Assembly: GCA_900175165.2 (NCBI GenBank)
Contig: FWWN02000588.1
Location: 1 to 49,122 of the forward strand
DNA: 49,122 nucleotides
DNA from: Rhizomucor pusillus
Lineage: Eukaryota; Mucoromycota; Mucoromycetes; Mucorales; Lichtheimiaceae
Direction: 5' to 3'
Shown piece by piece: positions 2,936-36,290 of this stretch. Position numbers and translations under genes: made by a program. The notes under the pieces are model-generated. The model saw only the letters and a list, made by a program, of their open reading frames with translations, had not been told where the DNA came from and ran no database searches. Numbering within the stretch: position 1 is the stretch's first letter; each line of letters begins with the position of its first letter.

Positions 2936-3229
2936 TTAGTGTCTCCTTTTCCAATAACCCGTTGCGCTTAACTTTGCTCTTGACGACCGACCAAACTGCT
3001 CGATAGGATTGAGTTCAGGTGCATACGATGGAAATAAGGCACATCGATATCGCCGAGACTCAATATACTTACAAATATCGTCAGATTTGTGGATGTTCTG
3101 TGGATGGGTAATAGCAATGAAACGCGGGTAACTTTTTGTACTTATATTTTCGTGAGCGCTGCATGTCCCAGCCTCCTGTTTATTTTGCTCGCTCTCTTCC
3201 AAGGTGATGTATGTACAACAAGTTGTCAT
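2936..3229 (-). pseudogene. IS630/Tc1-mariner transposase, C-terminal remnant
   Basis: The minus-strand frame ends with the typical third catalytic block of DDE transposases of the IS630/Tc1-mariner superfamily: NIHKSDDICKYIESR, then SYAPELNPIEQF, where the Glu of PELNPIE is the final acidic catalytic residue. The Trp that normally follows EQF is disrupted and the tail is frameshifted. There is no complete N-terminal half in frame. The nucleotide sequence around PELNPIEQF closely resembles a second remnant at about 31.7 kb, so both belong to one family. It is inactive in this form. Confidence 0.75.
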
Positions 3230-18138: not shown

Positions 18139-19692
<1,554 letters not shown>

Positions 19693-26822: not shown

Positions 26823-28679
26823 GCTGAATTTTGTGAAAGTAGCTGGTACAAAATAAACTGCAAAGAGAAAAAGAAAGAGAAGGAGAAAGAGAAGGATGCT
26901 GCGCAACTCTGCACAGACCACTATTTATGCGGACTTAACAAGCGCCACTACAGGTTTTTTAATCTGAAAATCAGAGAAGATTTATGGATATTGCTTCGTT
27001 GTGTTTTGGACAGACAATGTCATCGAAATGAACGATGGGATGAGGCCGATCTTTTTATAATCACTCCATTCCTCTGCCTTACAATGTATAAGACAGCAAA
27101 ATGGAAACCGAGAAATCTCGCTAACTGCATAAATAGTTATGGAAGAAAGCCTTTTGCCCCAAGAAAGCCAATTTGAGATTGGGATCACGAGATCCATCCT
27201 TCCTTGCTGAATATGTACCATCGATTAAGGCGTTCATGCTGCCGATGATATGAACCATCCTCTAATGATCCCTTGGCAGGATATTTAGATAATTTGACCA
27301 GAGACACATCTTGGATTTTGCATTATCTTAGCTATTTGGCAAGCGCAAAAAGATAGCGATCTACGTTTTTCGAAAACCTGCTGAACTAACGGTAAGTCGT
27401 AACCGTAGCAACATTCCACATTTATTCGCTTAACTCTGAGTTGAGTTTTTTGTCGTTCTGCCTTTCATAATCGTTTATATTCTGGTCAGCAACCAAACAC
27501 ACTTTGAATATGCTCTCGAATGAAAAAGGAAAAAGAATAATAATAATCGTCCCACCTTAATGATGCACAGAAAACGTGACCGACAAGTTGTTTGCTTTCC
27601 AACCGTGCTGGCTAGTGACTCATCAAGCCTTGTTTCGATCCTCTGTCATGCTATCTCGATATCAATCCGCCTCTAAGCTATCTTGTTCATCAATTCAAAT
27701 TTCTGTTGTAAACTACAACCATCAGATTAACAAGTATAGATGTGTGCAACTTGAAAGATTATCCCAAAACGTGCTGGCGGATAGAAATCGACCAGTCCGG
27801 ATTTGCTGATAAGCATCCGAAAGCGGTTTGCTGCATATTACTGTGCCTCTTATCCGTTCCTTCCTCAAGCGTACCCGCATATATATCACTCACTGTCTTC
27901 CGTATGTCTGACAGAATATGTAATCGTGTACACAACAAATAAGACAATATCTGTCAAAACAAGGGAGTAACTTGAGAGGATTGAAAACTCGGTACATCAA
28001 TATACTGCTCATTTTGATGCCTTTACTCCTAGCTAATCAACAGCACAACTCTACATACTACTCTAGTAGAACGACTTTCTATCCTGAGTTCTTATCGTAA
28101 CTTGAAGGCATCAAGCGTAAACAACGGAACTCAGAGAGAGCGCAAAGTGTGAGTCCCATTATGCAGACTATTATGAAGTTTATGTGTCGCAATGTCAACC
28201 TTCTTGGCTGCAAACCTGGATCTGAAGACTCATAAATTGGAACATGGAAAGGTATGAAGGCGTACTCATGTCAATCCTTCACAAATCCCTAAAGCGCATT
28301 AATACCATCATATTCGTTTAATGTTGTCTTGTGCCCCGCAAGGAGCTGAAACCATTGAAGAAAAAAAAGAATTGTCAGTTACGGGCCCGCGTCATCTATG
28401 ACTCGTTTTCCTCTTCTTTCTTCTTCTTTCCCTTTCTTTCCTCTTCTTTCCTGTTTTCTGTTTTTCTTTACGCAAGATGGAAGAACTGCAAAATACCACG
28501 ATTTAATCTTTCATTGAACTGTTTTCTGCTCTCCTAGTCTCGCTAAGCATACCTATCTATCATCCATTACTGCTCTTAGCTTTCAAAAGGCAAGAAAGAA
28601 GGAGTTGACAGAAGCCGCAGAAGGTAGGTGTGAGCAGAGTCCAAAGGGGCACAAGGCAAACTTTTACTGATATATTTCA
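26823..28679. other. Intergenic and accessory; no gene supported
   Basis: These 1.85 kb are AT-rich. A purine (GA) tract lies at about 26862-26895 and a pyrimidine tract at about 28400-28455. Frames at 26982-27221 (-) and 27576-27942 show no motif. The last 200 bp may contain the first exon of the Fanzor gene: LTEAAE at about 28600-28620, followed by a GTAGGT donor. I could not link it to the zinc-knuckle exon with a normal AG acceptor. Confidence 0.4.
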
Positions 28680-31366
28680 CCCACAATTATTTGCAACCAC
28701 TGTGGCGTAAAAGGCCACAAGATGAAGACCAATAGAAAGTGCAAGCTTTATACCGAAAGTGGCAAAGGTGAGCACGTTTACGGCACGATCAGTCATACCT
28801 CGAATCAACGATGTGCTAGTTGGCAAGAAAAGGGAACAAACAGATACAGAAAATGAAGAAGAAAGCCAAAGAAAGAAAAAGGGCAGGATACAGAAGGGAA
28901 GGGACCAATGCAAATGAAAATACAAAACCCTGTCCCAGATGCGGTTCCACTAGTCATTCAAGATCTACATCAAAGAATTGTCCTTACCATATCCAAACTT
29001 TGGAGGAGATCCTCGTATCACGATTTGGAAGGAATTTCGAGCGTTATACTCGCACCGTATCCCTGTCAGGAATTGTTAAAGAAGATTATCAAGAACAGCT
29101 ACAGCAGGGAATCCAGTAACTGTCATCTTTCATACGGAATGTCATTGTTCAAGTGATGGTCTTTGTTAATTTTTACATTGTGGAGCACGCGCACAATGCA
29201 ATTCCGGCCTATGTCTTTTCACAGACATTTTTCTATTCCGTATCGCAGCTCGTGATGGATATGGAAATAACAAACACCAATGACAAGATGCCTGATGACA
29301 TCCGCGACTATTGGGATCGCTTCAAAACGCAATATCCTTCGGCAATCTTTACGCAAGCAAGCATTCGAGGATACGCGANTCCGCTTGCTCGGGCTTGCCA
29401 AACGCTCCAAACTACGTATAGCAATATGATCGTCGAACACTTCCAGGACAGAGTGGAAAAATTCGTCATATTCAAGCTCCAAAGACTTATACCAGTAAAG
29501 CTACATAAGTGTTGTGTCTCATGATTAGCATCTATGTTAACTGTTAACCTGTAAAGAATATATCGAACAATCTTGCACGTAAATTAGCTAACGAGTGTAT
29601 TTACGAAGACCTTGCCGGAGGCAATCCCACAATACCGGAGGAGCTACAAGAAGACTGTGATCTCGACATTATCTTAGCGATACATACCATACAAATCTCG
29701 CTAAAAGACTATATTCCTGAACCATACACAATAACTGAAATGGCGGCAAATCCTGGAAGGTTCATTCCTGCGTTGCGTTTTATACTATCGCAGTATACAC
29801 TGGAGCACGAGCAGGGAAACGAGAAGACCGGCAAGACTTCGCCAAAATTATTTGCTCTGACGCCACAACCATCATTGCATTGGCGGTTTGTGGACATCGA
29901 TGCAGCAACTTTGGCAACAATTTTTCATTTGGGAACCTCCGTAACACATCAACAAAAAACCAATACGTTCAAGACTGTGCTTGATTTCAATCTGTATCGA
30001 TTTTTCAAGTAAGTGGATTTTAGTGTAATAGTGATTTATAATTTCTTATGCGTTGTTTAGCAGCGAAGAATGCATGTTTACCAACATGGTCACAACCAAT
30101 GGCTTCCAGTTGTCATTACATTTCGCAAGACCTGCAAAAAGTCCCGGGATGGAATTAGAACTTTCAGATTTCAAAGAAGAAATCGAAAACTATTTCATGC
30201 CCTGCGCTCTGGATACCGGGAGACGGGATATTTTCCAAGCTGCATATGGTGCTCAAAACACAGAACATGAAATTCGACGTTCGTATACGAGGGAGTATTA
30301 TCAATGGACAGGATCGCCGAAAAGGAACGAAAACCTCAAGAAGGCCAGAAACCGAAATGGCATTGAAGAGATAGAATCCAATTTTCCAAGTGCAAAGACT
30401 GCAGACATTACACGATACAGTGAATACGTGTGGTACCTTTTCTTACACTTGGAAACGCTATTCACATTCTATTGCTTCGACAATAACGCAGAGAGAAGAT
30501 TCAGAGCATATCAAGGCAAACAAAGGGCACAAGAAGAACTAGTGAATGTCATCGTTAATGGAGGAAAGAAATACAACTCTGCGAAGAGAAAACATAGGAG
30601 GAGAAACCGTCGAGAACGGAAAAAGCGAAAACGAAGGAGAAAGCTATTTAAACGGAAACGGAGGAATCTTACAGGAATAAGGTAATAAGACGTACCAATA
30701 TTTCAAAACAAATGGCTAGTTTCCAGCGCGGACTTCCAGATTGCCCATCCAAAATGAATCTGCAGTGAGATCGACTCTAGAAGAAGACAAGAATAAGCCT
30801 GATATGAAACAGAAGAAATGGGCAAAAGCGAAGTTCACTCCAAACTCTGAAGGGAAGTTGCCGTTGGTGATATTTGGCAATGGAATGTTCGGCGAAGATA
30901 ATGTCCCAATGAAGGGTCATCGGCCTGGTCTCGTTGGTGTGCTTTACCGCATGTTGAAGCGACGAGAAGCTCGCGGAGAACTGGTGGTCGTAATTATTGA
31001 TGAATACTTAACGTCGCAGGTAACTGACAACTGCAAAATCCCTCTCAAACATCTTCTAACGCCATGCTAATACATCAGATTTGCCATAATTGCCAAGGGA
31101 GGAGCTTGAAAAATGTCATTACTGCAGACGGCGTGCGTCGCCATAGTTTGCAAGTATGCAAGAACTGTGGCATATTATGGAATAGAGACACGAACGCCTG
31201 CAAAAATATGTTCCACATAGCTACATCTATCTGGTCGGGCAATGGTCGCCCTGGCCAGTTTGTCTGGCCTAAGCAACAGATCACGGCTACGAATGTCGGA
31301 CCCAGTAGGGTTTACATTTTTACGGCATGTTCTATTTACTTGCAAACCCCGCCTCAAGTATACTAA
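28680..31366 (+). pseudogene. Fanzor (TnpB-like RNA-guided nuclease), nearly complete, interrupted
   Basis: Fanzors are eukaryotic TnpB relatives that cut DNA guided by an RNA made at their own locus. An N-terminal exon (28680-28767) has a zinc knuckle, CNHCGVKGHKMKTNRKC. From 28820 the exons 28820-29494, 29557-30008, 30061-30681, 30740-31019 and 31079-31366 keep one phase for 772 codons. A second Cys/His cluster (CPRCGSTSHSRSTSKNC) and helical REC-like sequence are followed by RuvC-I CALDTGRRDIFQAAYG (Asp at 30212), a bridge with YYQWTGSPKR, RuvC-II VVIIDEYLTSQ (Glu at 31002), a CHNC...CKNC zinc ribbon and RuvC-III WNRDTNACKN (Asp at 31187). All catalytic residues are present. There is one in-frame TAA (29117), one ambiguous base (29379), and the knuckle exon joins out of frame. 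A mariner remnant follows downstream. Confidence 0.9.
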
Positions 31367-31626
31367 TAATTAGTATTTGCTTAGTATGTCGGTAAGCCGT
31401 GATCCAAGTTTCCGATATCGAAACTTTACTCATTGAGAGATATTTTGCGTTATTTGGAGCGCTGGCACCGCACTGTTGCAAGTTTAAGCTCAAGATGGCA
31501 AGTGTACTTGGACTCTAATTCGAGACGAATGTTTATTAATTTCTTTCCAAAGGTCCAAATTTGATTCCAGTGCGATGCAAAATTGATGCTCCAAACCGCA
31601 AACTGTCTGTAAACATGCAATACTCT

Positions 31627-31790
31627 GCAATGGATAATGCCACGTATCCATATGTCTGACGATATTTCCAAACAGATTGAGTCTCGGGGATATGGCTGTG
31701 CCTATCGTCCATCATATGCACCTGAGCTCAATCCTATCGAGCAATTTTGGTCGGGAGATCAGTAAATCGTGAAAAGAGCGCGCGTATCCG
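31627..31790 (+). pseudogene. Tc1-mariner/IS630 transposase C-terminal remnant
   Basis: A frame reading HMSDDISKQIESRGYGCAYR and then PSYAPELNPIEQFW is the last DDE block of the superfamily; the Glu of PELNPIE is the third catalytic residue. Just upstream AMDNA (expected MDNAPIH, second catalytic Asp) is one frame off. After EQFW comes SGDQ, a stop and VKRARVSDNE, the usual tail. Only this block survives. It lies 260 bp downstream of, and on the same strand as, the Fanzor gene, and it resembles the remnant at 2936-3229. Confidence 0.8.
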
Positions 31791-32032
31791 ACAATGAAAC
31801 AACAATAGTTTACTGTTACCCTTACAATCGTAAAGGCACAAATATCATCATGTAAATGTCTCACTTAGATAGCTTTCCGTTCCTCAGGAAGCTACTGCTG
31901 CAACGTACCTATGCTTTCAACTTTTCGGCATTGCATTGGGCGGCTGCTCCGTTTCATGCTTGATCAAAACTCCGGCCTCCATTATTAGATGCGAACTGCC
32001 AAAAAAAGAACCCCCTCTTTCTAATTGCCAAC

Positions 32033-33382: not shown

Positions 33383-35094
33383 TTAGAGTTTCGCAGCTTG
33401 CTTCCTTGCAGCCGAGATACCGGCTTTCTTGCCCAAGATGGCTCCCATCATGAGACCGCTGCGTTGGATTGAATGCATCTGTTAGCATTGTCCAACAGAA
33501 CTCATAGAAATATGCTCACCTTCCACCCGGATAATTATCGTAGAACAAACCACCCACGATCTCACCCGCAGCGTACAAGTTCTCAATCGGTTGGCGTTGG
33601 CCGTTGAGAACTGCTGCGGTTTTCGGATCAACAGCTAATCCACCAAACGTGAATGTGATGCCTATAAATATTGATGATATCAGGATATCGTGTGTGAAAT
33701 GGAAAAGATGTATGTGTGGGGTGTATGTTACCTGTGGTAATCTTAACAGCCACGAAAGGTCCCTGATCAATTGTCAATGCCCAGTTGGACTTGGGCAGAG
33801 CCAATCGCTTGGCAGAAGATTGAGTGGAGAGACCATCCTTAATAGCTGGATCCCATTTGCAGTTTGGATTTTCTTTACGATGCAATCTGACAGCCTCGTT
33901 GTATTCTTGGATAGTCTTGATAAACTGTTCTTTATTTGCCAGCGTTGCTTTCCAAGAACCCTTCTTTGGTGTAGCCAACTTTTCCGCGAGTTCCTCGATG
34001 GTATTCGCAGTAATCTTCTCCACAACATCGTCGCTGTATTCTTCCTCACGAAGCCAGGATAAGGCTTTGGAGTCCCAGATCTGGAACGCGACGCCTCCAG
34101 GCTGCTTGAGAACCTCCTTGCCAAAGAATGCATAAGTGTAGTTGCGGAAGTCCATGCCTTCGTCCACGAAACGGTTGCCGTCTCGATTGACCATGATACC
34201 CAAAGGATAGCCGCTCTTTGTAAACTGGTTAGTCAGATGCACGTCGCCCTTGTTGGGGTCGGTGTTAGCATCCCAGCAGGTAGCGTGACAGGAGCTGTAG
34301 CCACCCGCTGCAAGAGCGTTGCAGTCTCGCTGAGCAATCAGTAAACCGTCGCCAGTGTTGAAAGGCGTTCCACGGACGTGGGCGAGATCCCAGTTTGGGC
34401 CGAGATACTGTGCTCGCAAAGCAGAGCTGGATTCAAATCCACCACAGGTTAATATCACCGCGCCAGCTCGGATTGTCTTGTTTACACCGTCTGCGGTGAG
34501 GACCTTGACACCAGAGACGCGTGTGCTTTGGCTGTCAGTAACAAGCCCAGTCATACTTGTGCCGTACTGGACGACCACGCCGTGTCGAGCAGCAGATTCT
34601 TCATATTGTTGGATCATGCCTTTGCCTCCATCAACGACGCTGAGGACCATACCGCCCCAGAACTTGAAGCGTCCGTTCACTTTGTAGGCCTGGCGATTGA
34701 ACGAAAGTCTGAACTTGATACCAACTTTGCTAAGCCAGTCAATAACTTGACGGCTTTCACCCACGAGCACCTTGGCAAGCTCCGGGTCTGCGCGACCGCC
34801 TGTCACACGCATCAAGTCATTTGTGAACTGCTCGGGAGTGTAAGGGTCCATATCGATTAGTTTGGCAGTCTCAGCATCCACGTTGTGAAGGATAGGCATG
34901 AGGTCATGTAGTCCATAGAAGACGGTCCGAAAAGCACCCGCAGTGAAGAAGCTGTTGCCACCAGGATAAGCGTCTTTGGTAGACTTTTCGATAAGTAAGA
35001 CACGCTTTGCACCAGCTTGCTTGGCAGAGATAGCAGCTGAGAATCCAGCATTGCCACCTCCTACAACGACAATATCCCACTTGCTGGAATCCAT
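33383..35094 (-). CDS. FAD-dependent dehydrogenase, TcuA/fumarate reductase-like
   Basis: This belongs to the FAD-binding-2 family (fumarate reductase/succinate dehydrogenase flavoprotein group). Three exons (33732-35094, 33520-33661, 33383-33458) give 526 aa. The FAD site is IVVVGGGNAGFSAAISAKQ with LIEKS and PGGNSFFTAGAFRT. The C-terminal block AAGEIVGGLFYDNYPGGSG is the mark of the bacterial tricarballylate dehydrogenase (TcuA) branch, where the fumarate reductase His/Arg pattern is replaced by NYPGG. It is likely to oxidise a small carboxylate, but the substrate cannot be read from sequence. There is no signal peptide. It is transcribed away from a carboxylate-type MFS transporter, with 1.34 kb between start codons, a pairing that recalls bacterial tcu operons. 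The 3' splice site at 33458 gives a tidy GLMMGAILGKKAG end. Confidence 0.88.
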
Positions 35095-36290
35095 GACTTT
35101 TGAAAGATATCTTCAGAAAAACGAAAGGGGAAAGGTCGGGCCACAAGGTGAACCCACCAAATTTGTATAGGGCTCCCTTCCCCCCAAAGATTCCCGCCCC
35201 CCACAGTAAGTCACGGAGATTATATCTGTACCCTACATCTCAAAAAACATTACTTACAATGTCCACTGTAAGACGGCTGTTCGATGTTACCTAGTTTCCA
35301 GAAACTTGGACGCTCATATGAGAAATGTTTTTATTATTTATCTTTAAAGGCCTTTAGACACTGAAGGAGTTTGCATGAAACTTCTCCATCGAAAACCTCC
35401 AGACAGTAATATTTACAGCAGATCACAATGCAGTTTCAAACGAATATACGACAGAAAATCAGTTTTAAAACTGTTTGAATAATATTCAGAGCATTGGTTG
35501 TGGAATTCGGTTCCATACTTTTGATTCCATTTTGAGGAGCCTTACTCAGCAAGATCGTGAATCAAGATAAACATATGATATTCTCGTACGATCCTTTAAG
35601 ATGCACAGAGCAAATATAGAGTCAATCACGACGTAGTATCAAATAGTAGTATGCTGCGGTGCACGCATGGTATAGCATTTTAGACAGATCCCTTCTTTTC
35701 TTTGACGGCGGGAGGAAAACGCGGGAGGGGGTGGAGCGAGGAATGAAGACGCACAGGGCAAAGTCATACAGATTCTGCAGATAATTTTCCCGCGCCATAC
35801 TTCCATAAAAGGCGAATATACAACCTAAATCTTGCAACCTGATTCACACGTACAAACCAAAATTCCCCGTGATACAGCGAGCATTGGTGGGCTGAATAAA
35901 GGTGACGCATACTAACAACTGGTTTCAGGTTCATCGTATCAATCGTCGGAGACCGACAATGGCTTGATAACAACCACAGCAAATGCACAGCCCCCTGATT
36001 GGTTACATTGTGTTGCTGCTTGGCACAGTTTGGCAGATTTTGAATTTAGTGTATAACTGCTAATACTTTGACGTCAGATCGTTGCTGCATCGAATCATGT
36101 ACTCGGACTTGCTGTCAGTTTGTGGTCGCAAGGTGATACAATCCACAGTTTTAGTGATCCATGAGAAGAATTCGTTCACCCGAGTCTAAAATTACCTTTT
36201 CAGTCGTATTTCCCAGAGGATCCCTCTCTCTCTGCCACGCGTGATCCTATTTCGGGGGATGCACTTTTTACAAAGTTTTGACTCGCATCT

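Follow-up and report, generated by a model that had tools for sequence, protein, structure and literature searches.

Background

Fanzor proteins are eukaryotic relatives of the CRISPR-type RNA-guided DNA cutters. As described in PMC10432273, the omega RNA of Fanzor1 systems sits at the right end of the element, and PMC11423790 gives a length of 75-150 nt for the Fanzor1 omega RNAs known so far. The C-terminal half of the Fanzor/TnpB superfamily proteins is described by the pattern D-X(125,275)-[TS]-[TS]-X-X-C4-X(5,50)-RD (PMC3627910). PMC10711439 presents a relocated glutamate six residues before the zinc ribbon (Ealt) as a Fanzor trait, and a DPG at RuvC-I as near-exclusive to Fanzors, but not universal. 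Here we describe a window of 49,122 nucleotides (the whole stretch analysed, positions 1 to 49,122 of contig FWWN02000588.1 in assembly GCA_900175165.2; contig C49 among 353 contigs totalling 24.45 Mb) from Rhizomucor pusillus (Mucorales). Its positions 26951-31620 are with high probability an inactivated cut-and-paste DNA transposon, which carries a Fanzor1 gene, has TA flanks and weak, Tc1/mariner-like ends, and has a history of the kind proposed below. This Rhizomucor transposon is new as a member, not as a kind, and adds a group of Fanzor1 families from this genus. Our literature search, with most subscription journals outside its reach, returned no paper naming both "Fanzor" and "Rhizomucor".

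The Fanzor1 gene

The gene lies on the plus strand. An exon with a first zinc-knuckle-like motif (28690-28767) is followed by exons with the second knuckle and the start of a helical, REC-like region (28820-29494, for which homologues are coding throughout), a REC/WED-like region (29557-30008), RuvC-I and a basic stretch (30061-30681), the relocated RuvC-II glutamate (30740-31019) and, as last coding exon, the four-cysteine zinc ribbon with RuvC-III (31079-31366). From 29225 onwards, 29225-29494 and the four subsequent exons keep one phase over 636 codons plus a stop, for which base composition alone gives a chance probability of about 2e-16. A first-pass annotation had placed four introns between 28820 and 31366, and as far as sequence can tell they stand, all being GT..AG, 52-62 nt long and joined in phase. 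Its chain of five in-phase exons over 772 codons contains a TAA as codon 100. The catalytic RuvC acids (D 30212-30214, E 31002-31004, D 31187-31189) and both cysteine pairs of the ribbon (31082/31091 and 31157/31166) are intact in the window copy, as had been read initially.

By protein family we assign the gene to Fanzor1, in agreement with the initial identification of a Fanzor in a fungal host. The zinc-ribbon domain PF07282 (Pfam) is recognised with an E-value of 1.2e-10 (41.8 bits, cut-off 26.3), the superfamily pattern is present with D (30212) and TS separated by 246 residues, a C4 ribbon and RD five residues later, and the relocated glutamate stands six residues ahead of the ribbon (EYLTSQICHNC). 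The protein is nearer to solved Fanzor1 than to Fanzor2, TnpB or Cas12, and matches the guided_TnpB model with an E-value of 1.1e-7, under the cut-off of that model. Its closest named proteins are three fragmentary models from Rhizomucor pusillus itself; the first 83 residues of P0001 agree 100% with the copy on contig C25, and 158 positions of P0002 agree at 97.5% with the copy on C316. A genome-wide PF07282 search gave 28 matches and missed the window at E 0.001, because an intron splits the motif; the knuckle exons have no Pfam match below E 0.06.

Speaking against the assignment, RuvC-I of the window copy reads DTG and not DPG. DPG is read in the family-A copy on C25, in P0002 and in family B (L037, L039), and SpuFz1 of Spizellomyces punctatus itself aligns as DPN, so that we do not take DTG as excluding Fanzor. 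The cysteine pairs are 21 residues apart, beyond the 12-18 given in PMC10711439, our Ealt pattern having permitted 12-30.

The transposon and its copies

The element that carries the window Fanzor1 is a DNA transposon of eukaryotic, non-IS607 type. The feature had initially been delimited as 28680-31366; the gene is indeed there, whereas the whole unit is a larger transposon of about 4.67 kb on the plus strand (26951-31620), here termed family A. Stretches of it match 12 further contigs, mostly at 85-97% identity (C286 alone at 77-79%), with additional matches to its left part on C146 and C59. Long aligned blocks between window and sister copies are about 88-96% identical. The copies end alike, on the left with TA followed by CAGG, on the right with GCA(G) followed by TA, and have differing flanks, which defines the span. 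The flanking TA lies at 26949-26950 (preceded by C) and at 31621-31622, and is retained at eight of nine family-A left ends. Internally deleted family-A copies (L032, L033 and L035 on C207, C256 and C307), which retain the left and/or right end, resemble the ghost elements described for S. punctatus.

A copy on C14 with an internal deletion, comprising left end, Fanzor coding sequence and right end, links family D to Fanzor, and so does L067 on contig C9, a very short ghost-like copy in which about 80 nt of family-D left end are fused to about 97 nt of right end. Most family-D ends (25 of 31 left, 10 of 12 right) are less than 1.3 kb away from the contig end that the element faces, a pattern to be expected had the assembly been broken by numerous similar copies. 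Other Fanzor-type zinc-ribbon loci occur in different surroundings of the genome (L001-L003, L004-L006, L007, L008); L004-L006 have up to 1242 identical bases in common and are located at contig ends.

The mobiliser, which would have acted in trans, was most likely a transposase of Tc1/mariner type. The joined flanks of the window element align with Tc1/mariner copies that run unbroken through the same TA, with a clear match on the right, and the family-D left end is 79% alike to the 5' end of a resident mariner over 28 nt. Several points weigh against this part of our explanation. The terminal repeats are weak, the left one (26951-26976, plus strand) matching the right end imperfectly when compared by eye; the left flank matches the empty sites over only 5 nt ahead of the TA (GCCAC) and is thus weak evidence; and the open reading frame listing, without a profile search there, contains no transposase in the 5' 1.2 kb of the element. 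Two candidates were dismissed. The Tc1/mariner transposase remnant at 31629-31754 (plus strand) is flanking sequence and not the element's own transposase, because the right end shared by the copies comes before it and the flanks of other copies differ. A mariner frame on contig C80 (L108:2065-4506, 262 aa, motifs MDNAPIH and ELNPIEQFWS) has a 5' end that resembles the left end of family-D Fanzor at 79%; it runs into a family-D left part, but is an apparent chimera that proves nothing about the mobiliser.

A putative target motif

A C stands ahead of the left TA at 39 of 43 ends (7/9 in family A, 32/34 in family D), and the full CTA is found at 33 of the 43, compared with C ahead of 16.5% of the TA in the window. 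The idea arose from family A and an initial 17 ends of family D, so that the 17 later family-D ends form a fresh set, in which C occurs in 17/17 and CTA in 13/17. We interpret CTA as the putative target-adjacent motif (TAM) of these Fanzors, and liken it to SpuFz1, in which CA precedes the left repeat and the TAM is CATA. That the C instead reflects a target preference of the transposase, or is simply a base of the element, seems somewhat unlikely. Its conservation is about that of the neighbouring element bases, which would suit such an origin. However, the bias is one-sided, with no mirrored G after the right TA (6/28, background 18.5%); in a resident mariner whose repeat is similar, C occurs at 1 of 16 ends (Fisher P 1.4e-9); and CTA occurs in only two of the eight aligned mariner paralogues of the window's target.

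A predicted structured RNA at the right end

Between the stop codon and the right end we predict a conserved structured RNA, as in Fanzor omega RNA, with a scaffold at 31415-31612 (plus strand; paired part 31441-31605). Identity between the window and five family-B copies is 63-64% in the coding stretch 31100-31366, 70-72% in 31367-31500 and 78-80% in 31501-31622. The corresponding values are 57-58, 64 and 73-77% for two family-C copies, and 57-60, 58-62 and 73-74% for three family-D copies. The excess therefore stands out over the last 120 nt, whereas family D does not show it in the first part. The 17 aligned right ends fold into 34 pairs, six of them with two-sided changes. Of the cells, 95.3% pair, whereas shuffling gives 91.3 +/- 0.6% and sliding no more than 46.4%; two-sided cells number 34 (14.4 +/- 3.8 in shuffles) and the covariation score is 0.264 (0.197 in shuffles); none of 500 shuffles reached these three values, although covariation counts are inflated by the relatedness of the copies.

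The model R1 built from this RNA has a single site in the window (31415-31605), and also matches ends outside its building set (L034, L040, L057, L060, L061, L066, L067, L109). It finds nothing in L001-L008 at E 0.1, thus these are Fanzor loci without detectable sharing of this RNA. No Rfam match is found in 26900-31800 up to E 1.

It is quite unlikely that the conserved right end is a binding site of the transposase, or other cis-acting DNA, rather than RNA. Such a role would accord with the terminal repeat contained in the conserved stretch, with ten weak antisense matches of R1 (19-41 bits) on family C/D loci, and with two covariation measures that count against an RNA, as they do not exceed the shuffles, i.e., the pairs with two-sided change (6 compared with 5.2, 182/500 shuffles as high) and the further pair types (22 compared with 25.2, 500/500 as high). 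By contrast, a long-range helix, six pairs of which have changed on both sides, argues for RNA, as do 76 G-T compared with 10 A-C cells, a count biased in this direction by the prediction of the structure on the sense strand. The alignment folds better in sense (-21.1 kcal/mol) than in antisense (-13.6 kcal/mol); with the columns of the sense alignment shuffled 100 times, the energy is -4.0 +/- 2.7 kcal/mol, with a minimum of -14.6. The window sequence alone folds with a z of -2.42. The position at the right end likewise agrees with the known Fanzor omega RNAs. If a transcript read through the right end, its guide would, after the published omega RNA layout, correspond to 31623-31642 (plus strand).

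Decay of the protein gene

The window copy is predicted to be unable to make a full Fanzor protein. The TAA at 29117-29119, codon 100 of the chain starting at 28820, is common to the copies on C3 and C316, absent from C25, C218, C2 and C286, and without coverage in C122; the internal stop is therefore not brand new. An intron at 29116-29224 that would skip it was rejected, since the phases are incompatible and the relatives P0003, P0004 and P0007 are coding across. The exon with the first knuckle had been counted among six exons at first, and the motif is there, but the acceptor of this exon is missing. The AG ahead of the exon is absent in the window and C25 and present in five of six other covering copies. 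Spliced from GT 28768 to AG 28818-28819, the knuckle exon enters a frame that closes ahead of the second knuckle. Around 28900 the frame is broken, the window having 1 nt more than each of the five further copies with coverage there; additional small length differences nearby vary from copy to copy. The usual family stop (31313-31315) is lost, so that the frame continues to 31366, and one N falls within the gene (29378 region). Just past the family stop, 31325-31384 is intron-like in families A, C and D (donor-like GT, TACTAAT, TTAG), the GT being GC in the window.

The ratio of nonsynonymous to synonymous substitution rates (dN/dS) between the window and four family-A sister copies is 0.48-0.81. 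Compared with eight family B-D loci, dN is 0.31-0.49 with saturated dS, in keeping with purifying selection having acted on the protein in the past. A search for paralogues did recover copies, and those of family A that were compared all show breaks, gaps or truncation. The initial view of a recent, possibly still functional or just-inactivated gene, with its retained RuvC acids and ribbon cysteines and five exons in phase, is highly improbable given the in-frame stop shared with C3 and C316, the frame break, the missing acceptor, the lost family stop, this dN/dS and the divergence of the sister blocks.

Proposed history and implications

We propose that the ancestral unit encoded Fanzor1 together with a structured omega RNA at its right end, and was moved by a transposase in trans, most likely of the Tc1/mariner type. 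The guide of the omega RNA would be the DNA adjoining the insertion, with which Fanzor would cut the site again once it was emptied (CTA plus guide), and repair from a sister copy would then restore the element there. In the window copy the protein gene is broken and the fold of the right-end RNA apparently well kept.

An extension of this history, which we consider unlikely, is that many protein-dead right ends, including that of the window, still act as guide-RNA genes, with Fanzor supplied in trans by a family-D copy that is intact and missing from the assembly. The genome would then hold insertion-specific guides behind CTA, some of them, as here, copied from a rival mariner transposase. 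With its broken gene beside a well-preserved guide-RNA end, the window copy would lend itself to asking whether Fanzor guides act in trans. The copy number allows the omega RNA fold and the target motif to be read from sequence alone; both are therefore concrete predictions, testable with an intact relative.

Elsewhere in the window, a second Tc1/mariner transposase fragment (2987-3094) and two host FAD_binding_2 (fumarate reductase-type) oxidoreductase frames (33631-35112 and 18325-19497) lie on the minus strand. For a neighbouring oxidoreductase frame, R. pusillus is absent from the 120 hits listed.

Comparison with known systems

The RuvC domain and zinc ribbon are common to the window protein and TnpB of IS200/IS605 and IS607. 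Fanzor1 families of the same fungal group are known from Mucor, Rhizopus and Phycomyces (MCi, ROr, PBl; Bao and Jurka 2013), and sequence relatives of the window Fanzor were found in Mucor and Rhizopus; the window element differs from these families in its TA flank. PpFz1 of Parasitella parasitica (Mucorales), which was not recovered at E 0.01 in our profile search, differs in its 75-nt omega RNA, its TAM ATN and its FRI insertion, as described in PMC11423790. Shared with SPu-1/SpuFz1 are the protein fold of Fanzor1, flanking TA and repeats at the termini (PMC3627910, PMC10432273), additional conserved bases beside the left TA, and an omega RNA that lies between the stop codon and the right end (PMC10432273), the last being predicted in the window. 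SPu-1 is, by its published description, about 2.1 kb long, with one open reading frame, 33-bp repeats and intact copies, whereas the Rhizomucor element has 4.67 kb, introns, weak repeats, a broken protein gene, a predicted CTA and a longer folded right end.
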